From positions 62,001 through 126,000 of the forward strand of contig CP025095.1 of the NCBI GenBank assembly GCA_002831545.1: 64,000 nucleotides of DNA, in the 5' to 3' direction. The stretch comes from Streptococcus suis (lineage in GTDB: Bacteria > Bacillota > Bacilli > Lactobacillales > Streptococcaceae). The position numbers and the translations under genes were made by a program. Below, one piece after another: positions 6,093-13,378 of the stretch (the first letter of the stretch is position 1; each line of letters opens with the position of its first letter). The notes beneath the pieces are model-generated. The model had not been told where the DNA came from. It was given only the letters and a program-made list of their open reading frames with translations, and made no database searches.

Positions 6093-7094
6093 ATGACAAA
6101 TCGAATTTTAGATATGGAACAAATGCAGGACGAGGAGTATGTTGAGCGTACCCTGCGTCCACAGAAATTAAATGAATACATCGGTCAGGACAAGGTTAAG
6201 GACCAGCTGAAAATCTTTATCGAAGCAGCCAAGCTCCGTGATGAAGCCTTGGATCATACGCTTCTTTTTGGCCCTCCAGGTTTGGGAAAGACCACCATGG
6301 CCTTTGTTATTGCCAACGAATTGGGGGTCAACATTAAGCAGACCAGTGGTCCTGTTATTGAAAAAGCAGGTGACTTGGTGGCCCTTCTCAACGACTTGGA
6401 GCCTGGCGACGTCCTTTTTATCGATGAAATCCACCGTATGCCCATGGCGGTCGAGGAAATTCTCTACTCTGCTATGGAGGATTTCTACATCGACATTATG
6501 ATTGGAGCAGGGGAGGCCAGTCGCTCCGTGCATTTGGAGTTGCCACCTTTTACTCTGATTGGAGCGACCACTCGTGCGGGTATGCTGTCCAATCCTCTGC
6601 GGGCCCGTTTTGGTATTACCGGTCACATGGAATACTATGAACTGGCTGATTTGACGGAGATTGTCGAGCGGACAGCGGATATCTTTGATATGGAGATTAC
6701 TCATGAAGCCGCTATCGAGCTGGCTCGTCGGTCTCGTGGAACTCCCCGTATCGCCAACCGTCTGCTCAAGCGGGTGCGGGATTTCGCACAGATTATGGGT
6801 GACGGCCTGATTGACGACACCATTACGGATAAGGCCTTGACTATGTTGGATGTGGACCGCGAGGGGCTGGACTATGTGGACCAGAAGATTCTCCGTACCA
6901 TGATTGAGATGTACGGTGGCGGTCCTGTCGGTCTCAACACCCTGTCGGTTAATATCGCCGAGGAGCGTGAGACGGTGGAGGACATGTACGAGCCTTACCT
7001 GATTCAGCAGGGCTTCCTCATGCGGACACGGACGGGGCGGGTTGCTACAGCCAAGGCCTACGAGCACTTGGGTTATCCCTATACGGAAAAATAA
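6093..7094 (+). CDS. ruvB: Holliday junction branch migration helicase RuvB
   Basis: AAA+ motor of the RuvAB complex, which drives branch migration of Holliday junctions in recombinational repair; a hexamer in the cytoplasm. 333 residues, the normal length. Walker [10 protein letters not shown] is near residue 60, Walker B LFIDEIHR near 109, sensor region GATTRAG and the arginine-rich [19 protein letters not shown] motif are intact, and the C-terminal winged-helix domain is complete. ATG 6093 is chosen because it matches the family N-terminus; it lacks a Shine-Dalgarno and lies six bases after the -10, implying leaderless translation. ruvA is encoded separately about 11 kb downstream, as usual in streptococci. 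Confidence 0.97.
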
Positions 7095-7161
7095 TGGCAG
7101 AGCAGATGAGATGAGTAACAAACTTATTGCGATTACAAATCAATTTAGGAATGGAGATAAG

Positions 7162-7776
7162 ATGACACCGACATTTATTTGGGATTTGGATGGAACGCTC
7201 TTGGATTCTTATGAGGCGATATTGGCTGGAATCCAAGAAACCTATGAACAATACAAACTTCCTTATGACCGTGAGGAAGTCAAACAATTTATACTGCGCT
7301 ATTCTGTCAAGGACTTGCTGGTGCGCGATGCAGACAAATACGGTCTGGATAGCGATGAACTCAATTGCGTGCGTGCAACCTCCCTGAAGGAGAAAAATAC
7401 GCAAATTCCCTTGATGGCTGGTGCGCGTGAAATTCTGGACTGGACAGCAGAGAAAGGAATTCAAAATTTTGTTTATACACACAAGAGTGACAATGCTTTT
7501 CAGGTTTTGGAGGATTTGGGTGTTCGTCACCATTTCACAGAAATCTTGACCAGCGATTCTGGTTTTGCTCGCAAACCAAGTCCAGAAGCTCTGCTATTTC
7601 TCATAGACAAATACGGACTGGATAGGGAAAATACCTACTATATCGGCGACCGTCTGCTCGATGTAGAGACTGCTGTTAATGCGGGGATTCATAGCATCAA
7701 CCTGCAAATTGATGGTGTGGAGCAGAATTGGAAGATTGAACATTTGGTGGATATTAAGGAAAAGTTTAAAGTGTAG
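7162..7776 (+). CDS. HAD-superfamily phosphatase (phosphoglycolate phosphatase-like)
   Basis: 204 residues. Motif I WDLDGTLLDS (residues 7-16) gives the nucleophile and general acid/base aspartates. Motif II is VYTHKSD, the conserved lysine is in FARKPSPEAL, and motif III is YYIGDRLLDVETA. An alpha-helical cap lies between motifs I and II, as in subclass IA (Gph/beta-phosphoglucomutase type). Substrate cannot be assigned. ATG 7162 is preferred over ATG 7111 because ATGGAGAT supplies a Shine-Dalgarno and motif I then sits at the usual distance from the N-terminus. It follows ruvB by 67 bp, probably on the same transcript. Confidence 0.88.
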   Translation: MTPTFIWDLDGTLLDSYEAILAGIQETYEQYKLPYDREEVKQFILRYSVKDLLVRDADKYGLDSDELNCVRATSLKEKNTQIPLMAGAREILDWTAEKGIQNFVYTHKSDNAFQVLEDLGVRHHFTEILTSDSGFARKPSPEALLFLIDKYGLDRENTYYIGDRLLDVETAVNAGIHSINLQIDGVEQNWKIEHLVDIKEKFKV

Positions 7777-7967
7777 ATATAGCTAGTAACTATGGCAAGT
7801 CATGAAAATATTCAATTAGTCATCTATAGCAAGTTTTGATACACTATATAGGTAAAGCGAAAAACTGAGGTTATCGGTGAAAGATAAGAAATTCGAATAA
7901 TCGGGGAAGGCAGCACGAAATAGTCAGTATGTAAATATACAATTTTTTTCAGAACGAAATGAAACCG

Positions 7968-7996
7968 TTTACAAAACGTAAGTTTTTTGTTATAAT
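7968..7996 (+). promoter_or_regulatory. promoter of the first regulator gene in the array
   Basis: TTTACA (7968-7973), 17-bp spacer, TATAAT (7991-7996). The 190 bases before it (7777-7967) contain no gene that I can support. The leader from here to the ATG (AGTATATTCGGAGGTAT) is repeated almost unchanged in front of the other three regulator genes. Confidence 0.65.
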
Positions 7997-8023
7997 GAAT
8001 AAAAGTATATTCGGAGGTATCTT

Positions 8024-8935
8024 ATGAACGATAAGGAATTTGGGCAGCGTGTGCGTCAACTGCGAGAAACTGCTAATCTGACACGTGAACAGTTTTGCGA
8101 TGACGAACTTGAGCTCTCCGTCCGCCAATTAACCCGTATCGAAGCAGGCACTTCCAAGCCGACTTTTTCAAAAATCCAATATATCGCAACCCGCTTAGGC
8201 ATGGGGCTCTACGAGCTTATGCCAGATTATGTATCCTTACCCGAAAGATACTCCAAGCTGAAATTTGATGTCCTCCGTACACCGACTTATGGAAACGAGG
8301 AATTAGTTGAAAAACGTGATGCTATCATGACGGAAATATATGATGACTATTATGATGACTTGCCTGAGGAGGAGAAAATCGTTATAGATACACTATGCTC
8401 CCTATTTGATGTATTGGATACAGATAGTCGGGAATACGGCAAAGAAATTCTTGATGATTATTTACATCAAAGTTACCACCGTTCCAAACTATCTATAAAT
8501 GACTTAATGATTTTGCGGTTATTTGTCGAACACTTTGAGTTAGAAACTTTAGATTCTGGAACCGCAAATTATACACTATTTATAGATTTAGTAGAGAAAT
8601 TGACTCAAACAACCTACGATGTGCATTCGGAATCCTTATTTATTGTTAGGGATTTATTGCTAGCTATTGTTCGTATTTTGTTTTCGAAGGAGCTGTATGG
8701 GTATGTTCCAGTATATATAGAAAAAATTGAGAATATTATGGAATTATCGCAAGATTTTCAGAAAAAACCAATTTTAAATCTGGTGAAATGGAAATATGAA
8801 TTAAAGGAGAAACAGAATCGCGAAGGTGCTGAAAGATACTATAATGAAGCTATTACGTTGGCTAGCTTGCTTAATCAAACACACTTAAAAGAAAAGCTTC
8901 AAACGGAGTGGGAACAAGATACGAAAATAACATAA
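8024..8935 (+). CDS. XRE/TPR peptide-sensor type regulator, array copy 1
   Basis: 303 residues. The N-terminal HTH_3 domain (about residues 5-62: FGQRVRQLRET, then SVRQLTRIEAGTSKPTF) is followed by a conserved linker LYELMPDYVSLPERYSKLK and an all-helical C-terminal region like the TPR repeats of PlcR/Rgg/TprA (RRNPP) regulators, which bind short secreted peptides after import. First of four tandem paralogs; the first 110 or so residues are nearly identical in all four while the C-terminal halves differ, so each probably binds a similar DNA site but senses a different ligand. This copy's C-terminal half is the most divergent from copies 2 and 3. ATG has the shared GGAGG site. Confidence 0.85.
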   Translation: MNDKEFGQRVRQLRETANLTREQFCDDELELSVRQLTRIEAGTSKPTFSKIQYIATRLGMGLYELMPDYVSLPERYSKLKFDVLRTPTYGNEELVEKRDAIMTEIYDDYYDDLPEEEKIVIDTLCSLFDVLDTDSREYGKEILDDYLHQSYHRSKLSINDLMILRLFVEHFELETLDSGTANYTLFIDLVEKLTQTTYDVHSESLFIVRDLLLAIVRILFSKELYGYVPVYIEKIENIMELSQDFQKKPILNLVKWKYELKEKQNREGAERYYNEAITLASLLNQTHLKEKLQTEWEQDTKIT

Positions 8936-9037
8936 TATTCAGGTAGTGTATCGCATCTAGATATTCATCTATAGATTAACAGCGTTGATAAACTTTGTTT
9001 TTTTATAATATAAAAAAAGTATATTCGGAGGTATTTT

Positions 9038-9961
9038 ATGAACGATAAGGGATTTGGGCAGCGTGTACGTCAACTTCGAGAAACCGTTAGTCTGACACGT
9101 GAACAGTTTTGCGATGACGAACTTGAGCTCTCCGTTCGACAATTAACCCGTATCGAAGCAGGTACTTCTAAGCCGACTTTTTCAAAAATCCAATATATCG
9201 CAACCCGCTTAGGCATGGGGCTCTACGAGCTTATGCCAGATTACGTGTCGCTACCTGAACGATATTCCAAACTGAAGTTTGATGTACTTCGTACACCGAC
9301 TTATGAAAATGAGGAATTGATGGAAAAACGGGCAGATATGATGACAGAAATCTATGATGACTATTATGATGACTTGCCCGAGGAGGAGAAAATAGCGATT
9401 GATGCCATTCAATCTATTATTGATGTATTTGAAACGAAGACAGCAGAATTTGGTCAAGATATTCTAGAAGATTATTTTGAACAAATCCAAAGAAAACCCC
9501 AATTTTCAGCCAACGATTTGTTGATAATTCGACTCTATTTAATCAATTTGAGAATGGAAATTAAACAGAGCAGTGATTTTCAGCACTTTTTAGAGTTGGT
9601 GGAAAAGTTACCAAGCCAAGTAGAATTGATTGAATCTGGAGAATTATTTATTTTAAGAGATGTGATGCTGACGTCGATAGGGATTCTTGGCGAACATGAA
9701 GAATATGGCAAGATACCTCCACTTTTTGATGCTCTAGATAGAATCATGGTTTCAACTCAAGATTTTCAAAAGAAACCCATTCTCAATCTGCTTAAGTGGA
9801 AATATGAGTTATATGTGAACAATGATAGCGAGGAGGCTAGACGGTTTTATGAAGAAGCAGTTATGTTCGCAAAATTAATTGGCAATGCGCACCTAATTGC
9901 TAAATTAGAAGAGGATTGGCAAATAGATGTGAAAACAGCAGAATATTCAGGTGGTGTGTAA
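9038..9961 (+). CDS. XRE/TPR peptide-sensor type regulator, array copy 2
   Basis: 307 residues with the same architecture as its neighbours: HTH_3 domain in the first 62 residues and a helical, TPR-like sensor region to the end. The sensor half closely resembles copy 3 (shared FETKTAEFGQDIL and SSDFQHFLELVEKLPSQVEL), with scattered differences, so copies 2 and 3 look like a recent duplication. The upstream leader, including TATAATATAAA and GGAGGTATTTTATG, is the same as for copies 3 and 4. The stop is followed by GTATAGGCCTTC, again shared with copy 3. No peptide gene lies in the 82-bp gap to copy 3. Confidence 0.85.
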   Translation: MNDKGFGQRVRQLRETVSLTREQFCDDELELSVRQLTRIEAGTSKPTFSKIQYIATRLGMGLYELMPDYVSLPERYSKLKFDVLRTPTYENEELMEKRADMMTEIYDDYYDDLPEEEKIAIDAIQSIIDVFETKTAEFGQDILEDYFEQIQRKPQFSANDLLIIRLYLINLRMEIKQSSDFQHFLELVEKLPSQVELIESGELFILRDVMLTSIGILGEHEEYGKIPPLFDALDRIMVSTQDFQKKPILNLLKWKYELYVNNDSEEARRFYEEAVMFAKLIGNAHLIAKLEEDWQIDVKTAEYSGGV

Positions 9962-10043
9962 GGTATAGGCCTTCATCCACGATTAACAGCGTTGATAAAC
10001 TTTGTTTTTTATAATATAAAAAAAGTATATTCGGAGGTATTTT

Positions 10044-10967
10044 ATGAACGATAAGGAATTTGGACAGCGTGTACGTCAACTGCGAGAAACTGCTAATCTG
10101 ACACGTGAACAGTTTTGTGATGATGAACTGGAGCTCTCCGTACGCCAATTAACCCGTATCGAGGTAGGTACTTCTAAGCCAACTTTTTCAAAAATCCAAT
10201 ATATCGCAACCCGCTTAGGCATGGGGCTCTACGAGCTTATGCCTGATTATGTATCCTTGCCAGAAAGATACTCCAAGTTGAAGTTTGATGTCCTCCGTAC
10301 ACCGACTTATGAAAATGAGGAATTGATGGAAAAACGGGCAGATATGATGACAGAAATCTATGATGACTATTATGATGACTTGCCCGAGGATGAGAAAATA
10401 GCAATCGATGCTATTCAATCAACCATTGACGTATTTGAAACGAAGACAGCAGAATTTGGTCAAGATATTCTAGATGACTATTTTGAACAGATACATAGAA
10501 AAAAACAATTTTCATCCAATGATTTGTTGATAATCCAGCTCTATTTAATCAATTTGAGAATGGAAGTTAAACAGAGCAGTGATTTTCAGCACTTTTTAGA
10601 CTTGGTGGAAAAGTTACCAAGCCAAGTAGAATTAGTTGAATCTGGGGATTTGTTTATTTTAAGGGATGTGATGATAACTTCTGTTGGACTTTTGGGACAA
10701 AAGGAAGAATTTAGCTATATTCCTACACTCTTTGAAGCACTTGATAAGATAATGCAGAAGACCCAAGATTTTCAAAAGAAACCTATTCTTAATCTGCTTA
10801 AGTGGAAATATGAGTTGTTAATAAATAAAGATAAAGATGCAGCAACTGCCTTATTTGAAGAAGCACTTCTTTTTGCAAGAATAATTGGTAATGCCCACCT
10901 AACGGCTAAATTAGAAGAAGAGTGGCAAATAGATGTGAAAACAGCAGAATATTCAGGTGGTGTGTAA
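10044..10967 (+). CDS. XRE/TPR peptide-sensor type regulator, array copy 3
   Basis: 307 residues, closest to copy 2. The HTH half carries one visible change (EVGTSKP where the others have EAGTSKP) and is otherwise the array consensus. The C-terminal helical half diverges from copy 2 mainly around residues 205-260 (QKEEFSYIPTLFEALDKI versus EHEEYGKIPPLFDALDRI), the region expected to line the peptide groove in RRNPP proteins; that mapping is inference. The same 5' leader and 3' flank as copy 2 bound the gene, so the duplicated unit is gene plus about 80 bp. Confidence 0.85.
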   Translation: MNDKEFGQRVRQLRETANLTREQFCDDELELSVRQLTRIEVGTSKPTFSKIQYIATRLGMGLYELMPDYVSLPERYSKLKFDVLRTPTYENEELMEKRADMMTEIYDDYYDDLPEDEKIAIDAIQSTIDVFETKTAEFGQDILDDYFEQIHRKKQFSSNDLLIIQLYLINLRMEVKQSSDFQHFLDLVEKLPSQVELVESGDLFILRDVMITSVGLLGQKEEFSYIPTLFEALDKIMQKTQDFQKKPILNLLKWKYELLINKDKDAATALFEEALLFARIIGNAHLTAKLEEEWQIDVKTAEYSGGV

Positions 10968-11050
10968 GGTATAGGCCTTCACCCACGATTAACAGCGTTG
11001 ATAAACTTTGTTTTTTATAATATAAAAAAAAGTATATTCGGAGGTATTTT

Positions 11051-11950
11051 ATGAACGATAAGGAATTTGGGCAGCGTGTGCGTCAACTGCGAGAAACTGC
11101 TAATCTGACACGTGAACAGTTTTGCGATGACGAACTTGAGCTCTCCGTCCGCCAACTAACCCGTATCGAAGCAGGTACTTCTAAGCCGACTTTTTCAAAA
11201 ATCCAATATATCGCAACCCGCTTAGGCATGGGGCTCTACGAGCTTATGCCTGATTATGTATCCTTACCAGAAAGATACTCCAAGCTGAAATTTGATGTCC
11301 TCCGTACACCGACTTATGGAAACGAGGAATTAGTTGAAAAACGTGATGCTATCATGACGGAAATCTATGATGACTATTATGATGACTTGCCTGAGGAGGA
11401 GAAAATAGCGATTGATGCCATTCAATCCCGAATTGACACCTTAGAGTCAGGGACAGCGGGCTTCGGGAAAGAGATACTGGAAGATTACTTTGAACAAATT
11501 TTTCGAAAACAAAAGTACGAAGTGAATGATTTACTGATTATTAGGCTCCAGCTTGAATACGTTAGATTGTCCAGTAGTGACTCAGAAATATTTAAACAGT
11601 TTTTGAAAATTATAGAATATTTACATGGACAAATTGATATTATCAATTCGAGTGATCTATTTGTTTTACGAGACACATTGTTATCTTGTGTAAATATTTT
11701 GGGAGGCAAAAAGTATTATGAACCAATACCAAAAATATTCGAAACTGTAGATAAAATTATACAGTCAACGCAAGATTTTCAGAAAAAGCCAATTGTCAGT
11801 GTGTTGAAATGGAAGTACGCACTTTTTGTAAATAAGGATAGAGGTGAGGCTGAAAAACATTACCTAGATGCGATGCTATTTGCAAAATTGATAGAAAATA
11901 GAGAGTTAGAACAGAAGATTGAAGAAGATTGGAAAGTTGACAATCAATAA
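11051..11950 (+). CDS. XRE/TPR peptide-sensor type regulator, array copy 4, next to peptide gene
   Basis: 299 residues. The HTH half is near identical to copy 1 (including TPTYGNEELVEKRDAIM), and the start of the linker matches copies 2 and 3 (IAIDAIQS). The sensor half from about residue 130 is distinct from all others, so this gene looks like a mosaic. It is the only copy followed by a small peptide gene (76 bp downstream), which is the arrangement expected for an RRNPP regulator and its cognate pheromone. The stop is followed directly by an inverted repeat overlapping the peptide promoter. Confidence 0.85.
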   Translation: MNDKEFGQRVRQLRETANLTREQFCDDELELSVRQLTRIEAGTSKPTFSKIQYIATRLGMGLYELMPDYVSLPERYSKLKFDVLRTPTYGNEELVEKRDAIMTEIYDDYYDDLPEEEKIAIDAIQSRIDTLESGTAGFGKEILEDYFEQIFRKQKYEVNDLLIIRLQLEYVRLSSSDSEIFKQFLKIIEYLHGQIDIINSSDLFVLRDTLLSCVNILGGKKYYEPIPKIFETVDKIIQSTQDFQKKPIVSVLKWKYALFVNKDRGEAEKHYLDAMLFAKLIENRELEQKIEEDWKVDNQ

Positions 11951-11958
11951 AGTGACAT

Positions 11959-11995
11959 TTTTGTCCTGTTGAAGGACAGAAAAAACTATTATACT
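11959..11995 (+). promoter_or_regulatory. promoter and inverted-repeat operator of the peptide gene
   Basis: TTTTGTCCT and AGGACAGAAAA form an imperfect dyad around 11959-11984. A -35-like TTGAAG (11969-11974) lies within it and TATACT (11990-11995) follows as -10. A dyad on the -35 is the position used by PlcR/Rgg-type activators or repressors. The binding partner is inferred to be one or more of the four HTH proteins. Confidence 0.55.
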
Positions 11996-12026
11996 AAACT
12001 CATAAAGATTAAAGGAGATTAGTGAT

Positions 12027-12092
12027 ATGTTTAACTTTTTGAAATTTTTTGGTCGTCTTGGTGGTAACTGGGGGACTTGGGTTGAAGAATAA
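12027..12092 (+). CDS. 21-residue peptide, candidate signal for the adjacent regulator
   Basis: Open reading frame of 21 codons with an excellent AAAGGAG site ten bases upstream, its own promoter-like sequence, and a rho-independent terminator eight bases after the stop, so it is a dedicated short transcript. The N-terminal part is hydrophobic and basic (MFNFLKFFGR), then LGG, and the C-terminal eight residues are NWGTWVEE. The Gly-Gly followed by a W-x-x-W octapeptide invites processing after the GG, or export and shortening as for SHP/Phr-type pheromones. No classical signal peptide cleavage site. Alternatives are a leaderless bacteriocin-like peptide or a small membrane toxin. I do not recognise the peptide family. 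Confidence 0.65.
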   Translation: MFNFLKFFGRLGGNWGTWVEE

Positions 12093-12099
12093 TATTATC

Positions 12100-12127
12100 A
12101 AAAAGCCAACATCCGTTAGGCTTTTTT
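12100..12127 (+). terminator. terminator of the peptide gene
   Basis: AAAAAGCCAAC, short loop, GTTAGGCTTTTTT: stem of about ten pairs with one bulge and a T run. Confidence 0.85.
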
Positions 12128-12157
12128 GCTATACTAGACAATATATAGGAGGTGGCT

Positions 12158-13378
12158 ATGTTAGAAAATTGGTTAAACACCAAACAAGGTCAGGTGTTTC
12201 ATTATAAGATGGAAAAGATTGAGTATGCCCTGGAACTGCTGGGGAATCCCCAGTTTGCTGTTCCGGTCATTCATGTGGCTGGAACCAACGGCAAGGGGTC
12301 GACCATTGCCTTTCTGCGCCAGCTATTTCAGGCACATGGTATGCGTGTCGGTAGTTTTGTATCCCCCCACATGGTGAGCGTGCACGACAGGATTTGTATT
12401 GACAGCCAGCCCATTTCAGACCATGATTTTCAGTGCTATTTACAGAAAGTCTACGACTTGGAGCAGGAAGTCGCTACACGCTATGAGCCTTTTCGCTATT
12501 TTGAGGTCATGGTGCTCATTATGTTCCTTTATTTCGAAGCTCAACAACCCGATGTGGCACTAGTAGAGGTGGGCATCGGAGGACTTTTGGATACGACCAA
12601 CGTCGCGGCACCGGCTCTCAGCGTCATCACCTCCATCGGCATGGACCATCAGGATTTACTAGGATCGACTTTAAGGGAAATAGCAGAGCAGAAAGCAGGG
12701 ATTATCAAGGAAAACGTGCCTGTCGTCTTAGGACCACTTTGTCCAGAAACCACAGCCATCTGTCGCCACATTGCCCAAGACAAACAAGCCTCTGTCTATC
12801 AATTTGGTCAGGAATTTACCTACAAAGCAGGACAGTTCAGCAATACGGACTTGGAACTGTCAGAATTAGTTCTGAGTCTGGCAGGCCATCATCAAGAAGA
12901 GAATGCGGCCGTAGCTCTACAAACTTTTCTACTCTATATGACCAATATCCAAAAAGACATTCAACCTCAGCTGATTAAACAAGCGCTTGCTCAAACCAGC
13001 TGGCCTGGTCGTTTGGAATTGGTTGCTCAAGAGCCAAAAATCTATTTGGACGGAGCCCACAATGTCCCAGCTATCGAACGTTTGGTTGAATTTATTCAGG
13101 TTCAAGAAGAGCCTGTCACCATTCTCTTTTCAGCCCTTCGGCGCAAGGACTTTCAAGAAACGCTGGAATTATTGGAAGAAAAGTTACCACATACTCCTCT
13201 TGTATTAACCAGCTTTGCTTATGATGGTGCCTTGTCTGAGAAAAACCGACAAGGACGAGATTATGTTGAAGACTACCAGCAATTTATAGAAGACTGGCAA
13301 TCTAGCGAGCAAGGTATTTTGATTGTCACAGGCTCTCTCTACTTTATCTCAGAAGTTCGTCGGATTTTTAAAAAATGA
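12158..13378 (+). CDS. folC: folylpolyglutamate synthase / dihydrofolate synthase
   Basis: Mur-ligase family enzyme that adds glutamate to dihydropteroate and/or tetrahydrofolate with ATP, cytoplasmic, folate pathway. 406 residues, normal for FolC. The P-loop HVAGTNGKGST lies near residues 43-53, the folate-binding SFVSPHM follows, EVGIGGLLDTTN carries the conserved metal-binding region, and the C-terminal Mur ligase domain includes YLDGAHNVPA. ATG 12158 is chosen over GTG 12152 because AGGAGG at 12147-12152 is then correctly spaced. Streptococci often carry two folC copies; this one is not next to other folate genes. It is separated from the peptide gene by a terminator. Confidence 0.93.
   Translation: MLENWLNTKQGQVFHYKMEKIEYALELLGNPQFAVPVIHVAGTNGKGSTIAFLRQLFQAHGMRVGSFVSPHMVSVHDRICIDSQPISDHDFQCYLQKVYDLEQEVATRYEPFRYFEVMVLIMFLYFEAQQPDVALVEVGIGGLLDTTNVAAPALSVITSIGMDHQDLLGSTLREIAEQKAGIIKENVPVVLGPLCPETTAICRHIAQDKQASVYQFGQEFTYKAGQFSNTDLELSELVLSLAGHHQEENAAVALQTFLLYMTNIQKDIQPQLIKQALAQTSWPGRLELVAQEPKIYLDGAHNVPAIERLVEFIQVQEEPVTILFSALRRKDFQETLELLEEKLPHTPLVLTSFAYDGALSEKNRQGRDYVEDYQQFIEDWQSSEQGILIVTGSLYFISEVRRIFKK

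Follow-up and report, generated by a model that had tools for sequence, protein, structure and literature searches.

A tandem array of four comR genes with four sensor types beside a single comS in Streptococcus suis

Why would a genome carry four receptor genes for competence pheromones beside a single pheromone gene? The question is raised by a stretch of 64,000 nucleotides from Streptococcus suis contig CP025095.1 (the window; G000:C1:62001-126000 of a 2,719,245-base single-contig genome), in which four intact comR genes, referred to here as copies 1 to 4, stand in tandem on the forward strand ahead of comS. We read the locus as the S. suis ComR-ComS competence switch with three extra ComR receptors that lack a pheromone gene of their own. 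Most likely, the array would let the strain answer foreign pheromones via its own comS and comX promoters. To judge from the comparisons given below, copies 1 to 3 are probably working receptors for foreign XIPs (comX-inducing peptides) that act on the same promoters.

Four sensor types and one comS

Copy 4 (11051-11950, + strand, 299 amino acids) is the comS-linked ComR of S. suis type A, or pherotype I. It aligned over residues 1-299 with the solved S. suis ComR (5fd4_A; 604.5 bits, E value of 2.5e-181), and directly downstream, behind a ComR box, lies a short comS with a C-terminal Trp motif (12027-12092, + strand; 21 codons plus stop; product MFNFLKFFGRLGGNWGTWVEE). The final nine residues of the product, GNWGTWVEE, are a published XIP: in the relevant passage of PMC4072589, this peptide (ComS13-21) is the best competence inducer in S. 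suis strain 10, in a comR- and comX-dependent manner. Given the 5fd4 match and the published XIP, copy 4 and the 21-codon gene are the known S. suis competence pair ComR-ComS. A preliminary description of the locus, made from the letters alone, had proposed the peptide as the signal for copy 4, which agrees with what has been reported for S. suis ComRS. It had also held that no described pheromone has this tail; that claim falls, as the exact string is already in print, and the peptide is thereby ruled out as an undescribed pheromone. Nor do PlcR, Rgg, and TprA, named there for comparison, provide the closest relatives, since the best families are ComR_TPR and the solved ComR and the peptide is XIP. 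The small gene with a strong Shine-Dalgarno sequence is where it had been placed, after the array, with AAAGGAGAT upstream of it. Furthermore, the peptide frame is conserved beside related regulators, with a short Trp-containing frame after the last comR in 29/29 loci. These loci are mainly the best matches among Streptococcus genomes (206/284 match) and not a random sample; about 29 to 30 further regions (15 kb, some shorter) were compared, two of them representing a different ComR2 locus, and together with the window they gave 29 comR-folC loci.

The four copies have near-identical helix-turn-helix halves and distinct C-terminal halves, confirming the earlier account of a tandem four-gene array with a common leader. 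Amino acid identity among them is 92.7-100% for residues 1-110, where copy 1 equals copy 4 exactly, versus 39.3-78.8% for residues 111-299. The leader AAAGTATATTCGGAGGTAT precedes all four with zero mismatches (chance expectation, 0.02 at up to three mismatches). All four match PF18710 ComR_TPR (198.6, 239.1, 224.1, and 215.5 bits for copies 1 to 4; cutoff, 26.5), in keeping with their assignment to the peptide-sensing RRNPP-type regulators, and copies 1 to 3 are 62% identical overall to the first row of their alignment. An assembly artifact is an unlikely source of the array because the genome is a single contig and the same orphan junction (see below) occurs in four other genomes.

The sensor halves (residues 111-299) were then compared with those of receptors from other genomes. 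Copy 1 (8024-8935, + strand, 303 amino acids) carries no comS and has a sensor of type C (ComS_II, NWWVK), with 89.5, 93.7, and 93.2% identity to the comS-linked L038_2, L040_2, and L041_2, whose ComS ends in GEDNWWVK, and 78.0% to L051, which has the same ComS ending. Copy 2 (9038-9961, + strand, 307 amino acids), likewise without comS, is of type B and is 94.2% identical to the comS-linked L039_2 and L045_1 (GNWGKWTDG). Copy 3 (10044-10967, + strand, 307 amino acids), the third without comS, is 94.2% identical to the comS-linked L043 and L044 (DFSTSWWNF) and 83.1% to L042 (DFSTHWWNQ); we named this STSWWNF-linked sensor type D for the present analysis. For copy 4, identity to L031-L036 (GNWGTWVEE or GNWGTWIEE) is 90.5-98.4%. 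The sensor halves of copies 1 to 3 are far closer to comS-linked receptors of other genomes than to each other, and the ComS peptide class tracks the sensor type in 15/15 comS-linked genes of types A to D. As judged from these matches to receptors linked to NWWVK, GNWGKWTDG, and STSWWNF ComS, the array combines a single comS with receptors typed to four pherotypes. Among the roles suggested earlier for copies 1 to 3, the sensing of foreign variants fits best, their sensors matching comS-linked receptors of other pherotypes.

Each peptide class has a published counterpart. The table of a 2026 review (PMC13361665) gives GNWGTWVEE, GNWGKWTDG, and LGDENWWVK for S. suis types A, B, and C, respectively, and passages in two other papers report the use of ENWWVK as active ComS_II (PMC5398294) and of DFSTSWWNF for transforming strain WUSS351 (PMC9067509). 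The type C loci compared here encode GEDNWWVK, which has NWWVK, and not the residues preceding it, in common with the published LGDENWWVK.

Subtracting 5 from the residue numbers published for S. suis ComR gives the matching residue of copy 4 at 10/10 positions tried. The DNA-binding-domain residues listed in the passage of PMC5131902, R19, Q28, Q40, T42, and R43 (here R14, Q23, Q35, T37, and R38), do not vary among the four copies, the interface residues are unchanged, and R103, K250, and K260, which belong to the conserved face of the pocket, are retained. The same paper proposes N220, on the variable face, as a selectivity residue. All genes compared follow one rule at this position: type A has N, type C has R, and types B and D have G. 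At R170, copy 3 has Q, as do the comS-linked L043 and L044, and position 172, an ad hoc choice that may lie in the pocket, is E in type C and R in types A, B, and D. These residues bear on the idea that the extra ComR proteins are decoys or brakes, which would damp or delay competence by binding XIP or by dimerizing with copy 4. The near identity of the DNA-binding halves, and hence of the domain that sits on DNA, would suit such a role, and SarF of Streptococcus salivarius has been reported to inhibit ScuR mildly. However, the sensors belong to types for other pheromones and differ at the published selectivity residue, so that copies 1 to 3 should bind the strain's own XIP poorly; ComR has been published to bind its operator only with XIP, and damping would not require four distinct sensors. 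We therefore regard a decoy function as very unlikely.

Orphan copies and their mosaic history

Copies 1 to 3 are orphans. Among the loci compared, a ComR-box-like repeat stands after the last comR in 27/29 (all except L059 and L060) and after an upstream copy in 0/7, copies 1 to 3 included, and the gaps of 83 to 103 bases after copies 1 to 3 hold no comS. Thus, these copies encode ComR proteins and do not form complete ComRS pairs. In the place where ComR box and comS would be, copies 1 to 3 and the first copies of L038-L041 have a common junction, about 80 bases long (…AATATTCAGGTGGTGTGTAA… ATTAACAGCGTTGATAAACTTTG…TATAATAT…GTATATTCGGAGGT). The junction between copies 2 and 3 (9962-10043, + strand) is held in common with the orphan copies of these four other genomes, that between copies 3 and 4 (10968-11050, + strand) is of the same kind, and that between copies 1 and 2 (8936-9037, + strand) is a diverged form which supplies the ribosome-binding site GGAGGT for copy 2. 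Copies 2 and 3 also share the terminal residues KTAEYSGGV. A comS for copies 1 to 3 was sought elsewhere in the genome with degenerate NWWVK, WWNF, and GKWTD patterns, which would miss a more diverged comS; there was no exact match, and none of the one-mismatch matches (6, 1, and 3, respectively) is a short frame with such an ending.

The arrangement recurs. More than one comR is present in 5/29 comR-folC loci, namely the window, with four, and L038, L039, L040, and L041, with two each, and of the 14 other genomes that have sensor types A to D, 4 contain orphan-type receptors. Among fetched database proteins whose DNA-binding half is at least 85% like that of the window, 17 have the orphan-type tail (13 of type D, 3 of type B, and 1 of type C); one of them, P0016, has no source listed and may represent the window's own cluster. 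No type A sensor was seen in an orphan slot among these proteins, which is weak evidence, as type A was collapsed into one full-length cluster.

Each gene was divided into segments of 342, 468, and 81 bases lying before, in, and after the sensor (codons 115-270). Between copy 2 and the comS-linked L045, there are differences at 18/342 positions before the sensor, at 3/468 within it, and at 22/81 after it (Fisher P values of 5.1e-5 for before versus sensor and 5.6e-17 for after versus sensor). Copy 3 and the orphan L041_1 have 23 differences before, 4 in, and 5 after the sensor. Against the comS-linked L044, copy 3 has 31, 20, and 4 differences, respectively, without a contrast between sensor and tail (P = 0.77). 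We also compared the DNA-binding halves of 22 genes from 15 genomes with types A to D, leaving out 14 loci with other sensor types. Genes of the same type diverged by 0.094 and genes of different types by 0.095; for 8/22 genes, the nearest neighbor was of the same type (shuffled mean, 5.1; reached in 304/2000 shuffles). By these sequence measures, the DNA-binding halves recombine independently of sensor type. The corresponding result for the sensors (22/22) is not usable as independent evidence, being circular, as types were defined by sensor similarity; the independent results are the comparison of the DNA-binding halves and the 15/15 agreement between ComS class and linked sensor type. Natural transformation and unequal crossing-over between units of about 1 kb most likely built up the array, and the sensor half would be swapped as a cassette between conserved ends.

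In the type B loci L039 and L045, a D-like sensor is joined to a comS whose promoter and leader are almost identical to those of the type A locus L034 (MFNFLNFFGRLGGNWG), with the comR stop codon lying inside the ComR box. The type B locus is likely a natural chimera that made a new pherotype.

The mosaic DNA invites another explanation, that copies 1 to 3 are recombination by-products of incoming comRS DNA, briefly kept as a store of sensor cassettes and of no use in sensing. The differences between copy 2 and L045, the lack of linkage between DNA-binding half and sensor type, and the type B locus, since it joins a D-like sensor to an A-like comS promoter and leader and so indicates that such chimeras do arise, all fit this view. 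Nevertheless, the orphan copies at the locus are full-length open frames in 7/7 cases, every orphan has retained its own ribosome-binding site, and the ratio of nonsynonymous to synonymous substitution rates (dN/dS) of the sensors of copies 1 to 3 against same-type genes is low in most pairs (0.08-0.20 in 9/11). Moreover, a sensor that moved without its comS would mismatch the resident pheromone. Leftovers or a cassette store constitute the main rival to sensing of foreign pheromones, and we consider them unlikely, although less so than a decoy function.

Promoters and a common output

A ComR-box-like repeat stands in the comS promoter (GACATTTTTGTCC at 11954-11966, or GACATTTTTGTCCTGT as 11954-11969, + strand), where it is the sole match in the whole genome at up to one mismatch. 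A near-identical box, GACAAAAATGTCCTGT at G000:C1:16162, lies 55 bases upstream of the start of a 156-residue sigma-like frame, the probable comX, and the ComEC and DprA frames are open in the same genome. XIP-dependent comX activation has been published for S. suis type A. Under the proposed mechanism, a foreign XIP would enter by the Opp peptide importer and bind the matching extra ComR, freeing its DNA-binding half, and the resulting dimer would activate the common ComR boxes in front of comS and comX. Competence would follow, as would production of the cell's own type A XIP, so that a neighbor's signal would be translated into its own. In a published test-bed, ComR of S. suis 05ZYH33 was "strict," answering its own XIP only; extra receptors would therefore add range.

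Alternatively, the extra regulators could control genes other than comS and comX, as S. salivarius ScuR and SarF do. This precedent is joined by another ComR-like locus in the same genome, which adjoins a bacteriocin-like gene (see below). Yet the DNA-binding halves are 93-100% identical to that of copy 4 over 110 residues, recombination keeps homogenizing them, no ComR box follows any orphan (0/7), and the genome has a single exact copy of the comS box. Of the explanations weighed here, separate targets appear the least likely.

Several observations weigh against receptors of foreign XIPs that share the targets of copy 4. The S. salivarius ComR paralogues ScuR and SarF have similar DNA-binding halves and, as reported, do not activate comX, so that targets need not be shared wherever the DNA-binding half is. 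A few residues of that half are changed in copies 2 and 3 (E5G, A17V, and N18S; A41V). The N220 position cannot separate types B and D, as both have G there. The sensors of copy 3 and L041_1 differ by 0 synonymous and 4 nonsynonymous changes, and those of copy 3 and L040_1 have a dN/dS of 0.39, neither with a sign of purifying selection. The promoter scan gave no site in the gaps between copies. The family match of the comX frame is weak (22.5 bits versus a cutoff of 42.9 with a sigma-70 superfamily model; none in Pfam). Finally, the orphan type differs from the host's linked receptor type in 7/7 cases, which is not significant, as such a difference arises in 43% of shuffled arrangements (17% with the three window copies all different); avoidance of the host's own type was accordingly rejected.

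With these points taken into account, reception of foreign XIPs by copies 1 to 3 is still the reading we favor. A broader proposal, advanced more tentatively on the same sequence evidence, is that the strain listens in many languages, with working receptors for four S. suis competence pheromones and one shared output. S. suis pherotypes are thought to split the species into groups that signal and exchange DNA within and not between them, according to PMC4072589. If the broader proposal is true, pherotypes would not isolate this strain from other populations, and a strain that sends one signal and carries four receptor types would be a one-way bridge between pherotype groups. A foreign pheromone would elicit competence and the strain's own pheromone, the DNA taken up would supply receptor cassettes, and the competence locus would collect the receptors of neighbors. 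The cassette structure, with a fixed DNA-binding half, an exchangeable sensor, and a fixed tail, shows a way for new receptor-signal pairs to arise.

The preliminary description had given the small gene a promoter and a terminator. For the promoter, TATACT can be read at 11990-11995, upstream of comS. An automatic terminator scan of 7700-12250 reported none; by eye, some 7 pairs can be drawn as a stem near 12101-12127, with a T run and a loop of 11 bases that exceeds the limit of the scan. The strongest sigma-70-like site of the region, TTTACA-17-TATAAT (7968-7996, + strand; 11/12, a consensus match only), precedes copy 1, and the 19 promoter-like sites in the region do not exceed those in shuffled sequence (16.1; standard deviation, 3.4).

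Known systems and other ComR-like loci

The locus is an S. suis ComRS system (pherotypes I-III; XIP types A, B, and C) in its copy 4, comS, and ComR box, in its location between ruvB-HAD and folC (a HAD-family gene at 7042-7776 and ruvB upstream; folC at 12152-13378 downstream), and in that each sensor type of the window matches a known or reported pherotype. It departs from the published arrangement of one comR and one comS per strain in having four comR types and one comS. An S. suis genome with three comR (I, II, and III) is mentioned in a passage of PMC10995628, whose authors ask whether it senses three pheromones. It likewise has several comR types, and that passage gives no order, junction, orphan status, or sequence, unlike the four tandem genes described here. 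In S. salivarius, the ComR paralogues ScuR and SarF also have similar DNA-binding halves, different peptide sensors, and, in the published account, no adjoining short peptide gene; in contrast to the tandem window copies with near-identical DNA-binding halves, they lie elsewhere in the genome, share about 42% identity with ComR, and do not activate comX. No publication describing such a comR array was found in the retrieved passages of the literature on S. suis comR multiplicity, pherotypes, and eavesdropping. What is known thus appears to be three comR types in one genome, in one printed sentence, and what is new would be the four-type tandem structure, its recurrence, and its mosaic history, as deduced from sequence. 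By analogy only, LuxR solos, which belong to a different family with a different signal, are receptors without a cognate signal gene that read the signals of other cells.

A second ComR-like locus, 37-41% identical to ComR, is present in the window's genome (L055; G000:C1:2655000-2665000) and in L056, L136, and L137, with two TGACA-N-TGTCA repeats. A ComS-like short WW peptide follows the ComR-like gene in L136, L137, and L056 and is absent as a frame from L055, unlike in the other three. In L136 and L056, the peptide is followed by the start of another small secreted-protein-like gene, which we take to be lactococcin-972-like. L137 has tandem ComR2 genes, 94% identical over the first 100 residues and 41% in the later part, so that the pattern of a shared DNA-binding half and different sensors is seen at the second locus as well; L056 also has two ComR2 copies. 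Tandem comR-like pairs adjoin ruvB in four other streptococcal genomes (L132-L135). These were rejected as instances of the same pattern and taken as older duplicates because their DNA-binding halves are only 59-77% alike and their sensors 37-43% alike. Two further variants were seen between comR and folC: in L043 and L044, comS of the STSWWNF type and its ComR box are present twice, with a copy of the folC head between them, and in L036, an insertion of about 3 kb separates comS from folC (gap, 3178 bases).

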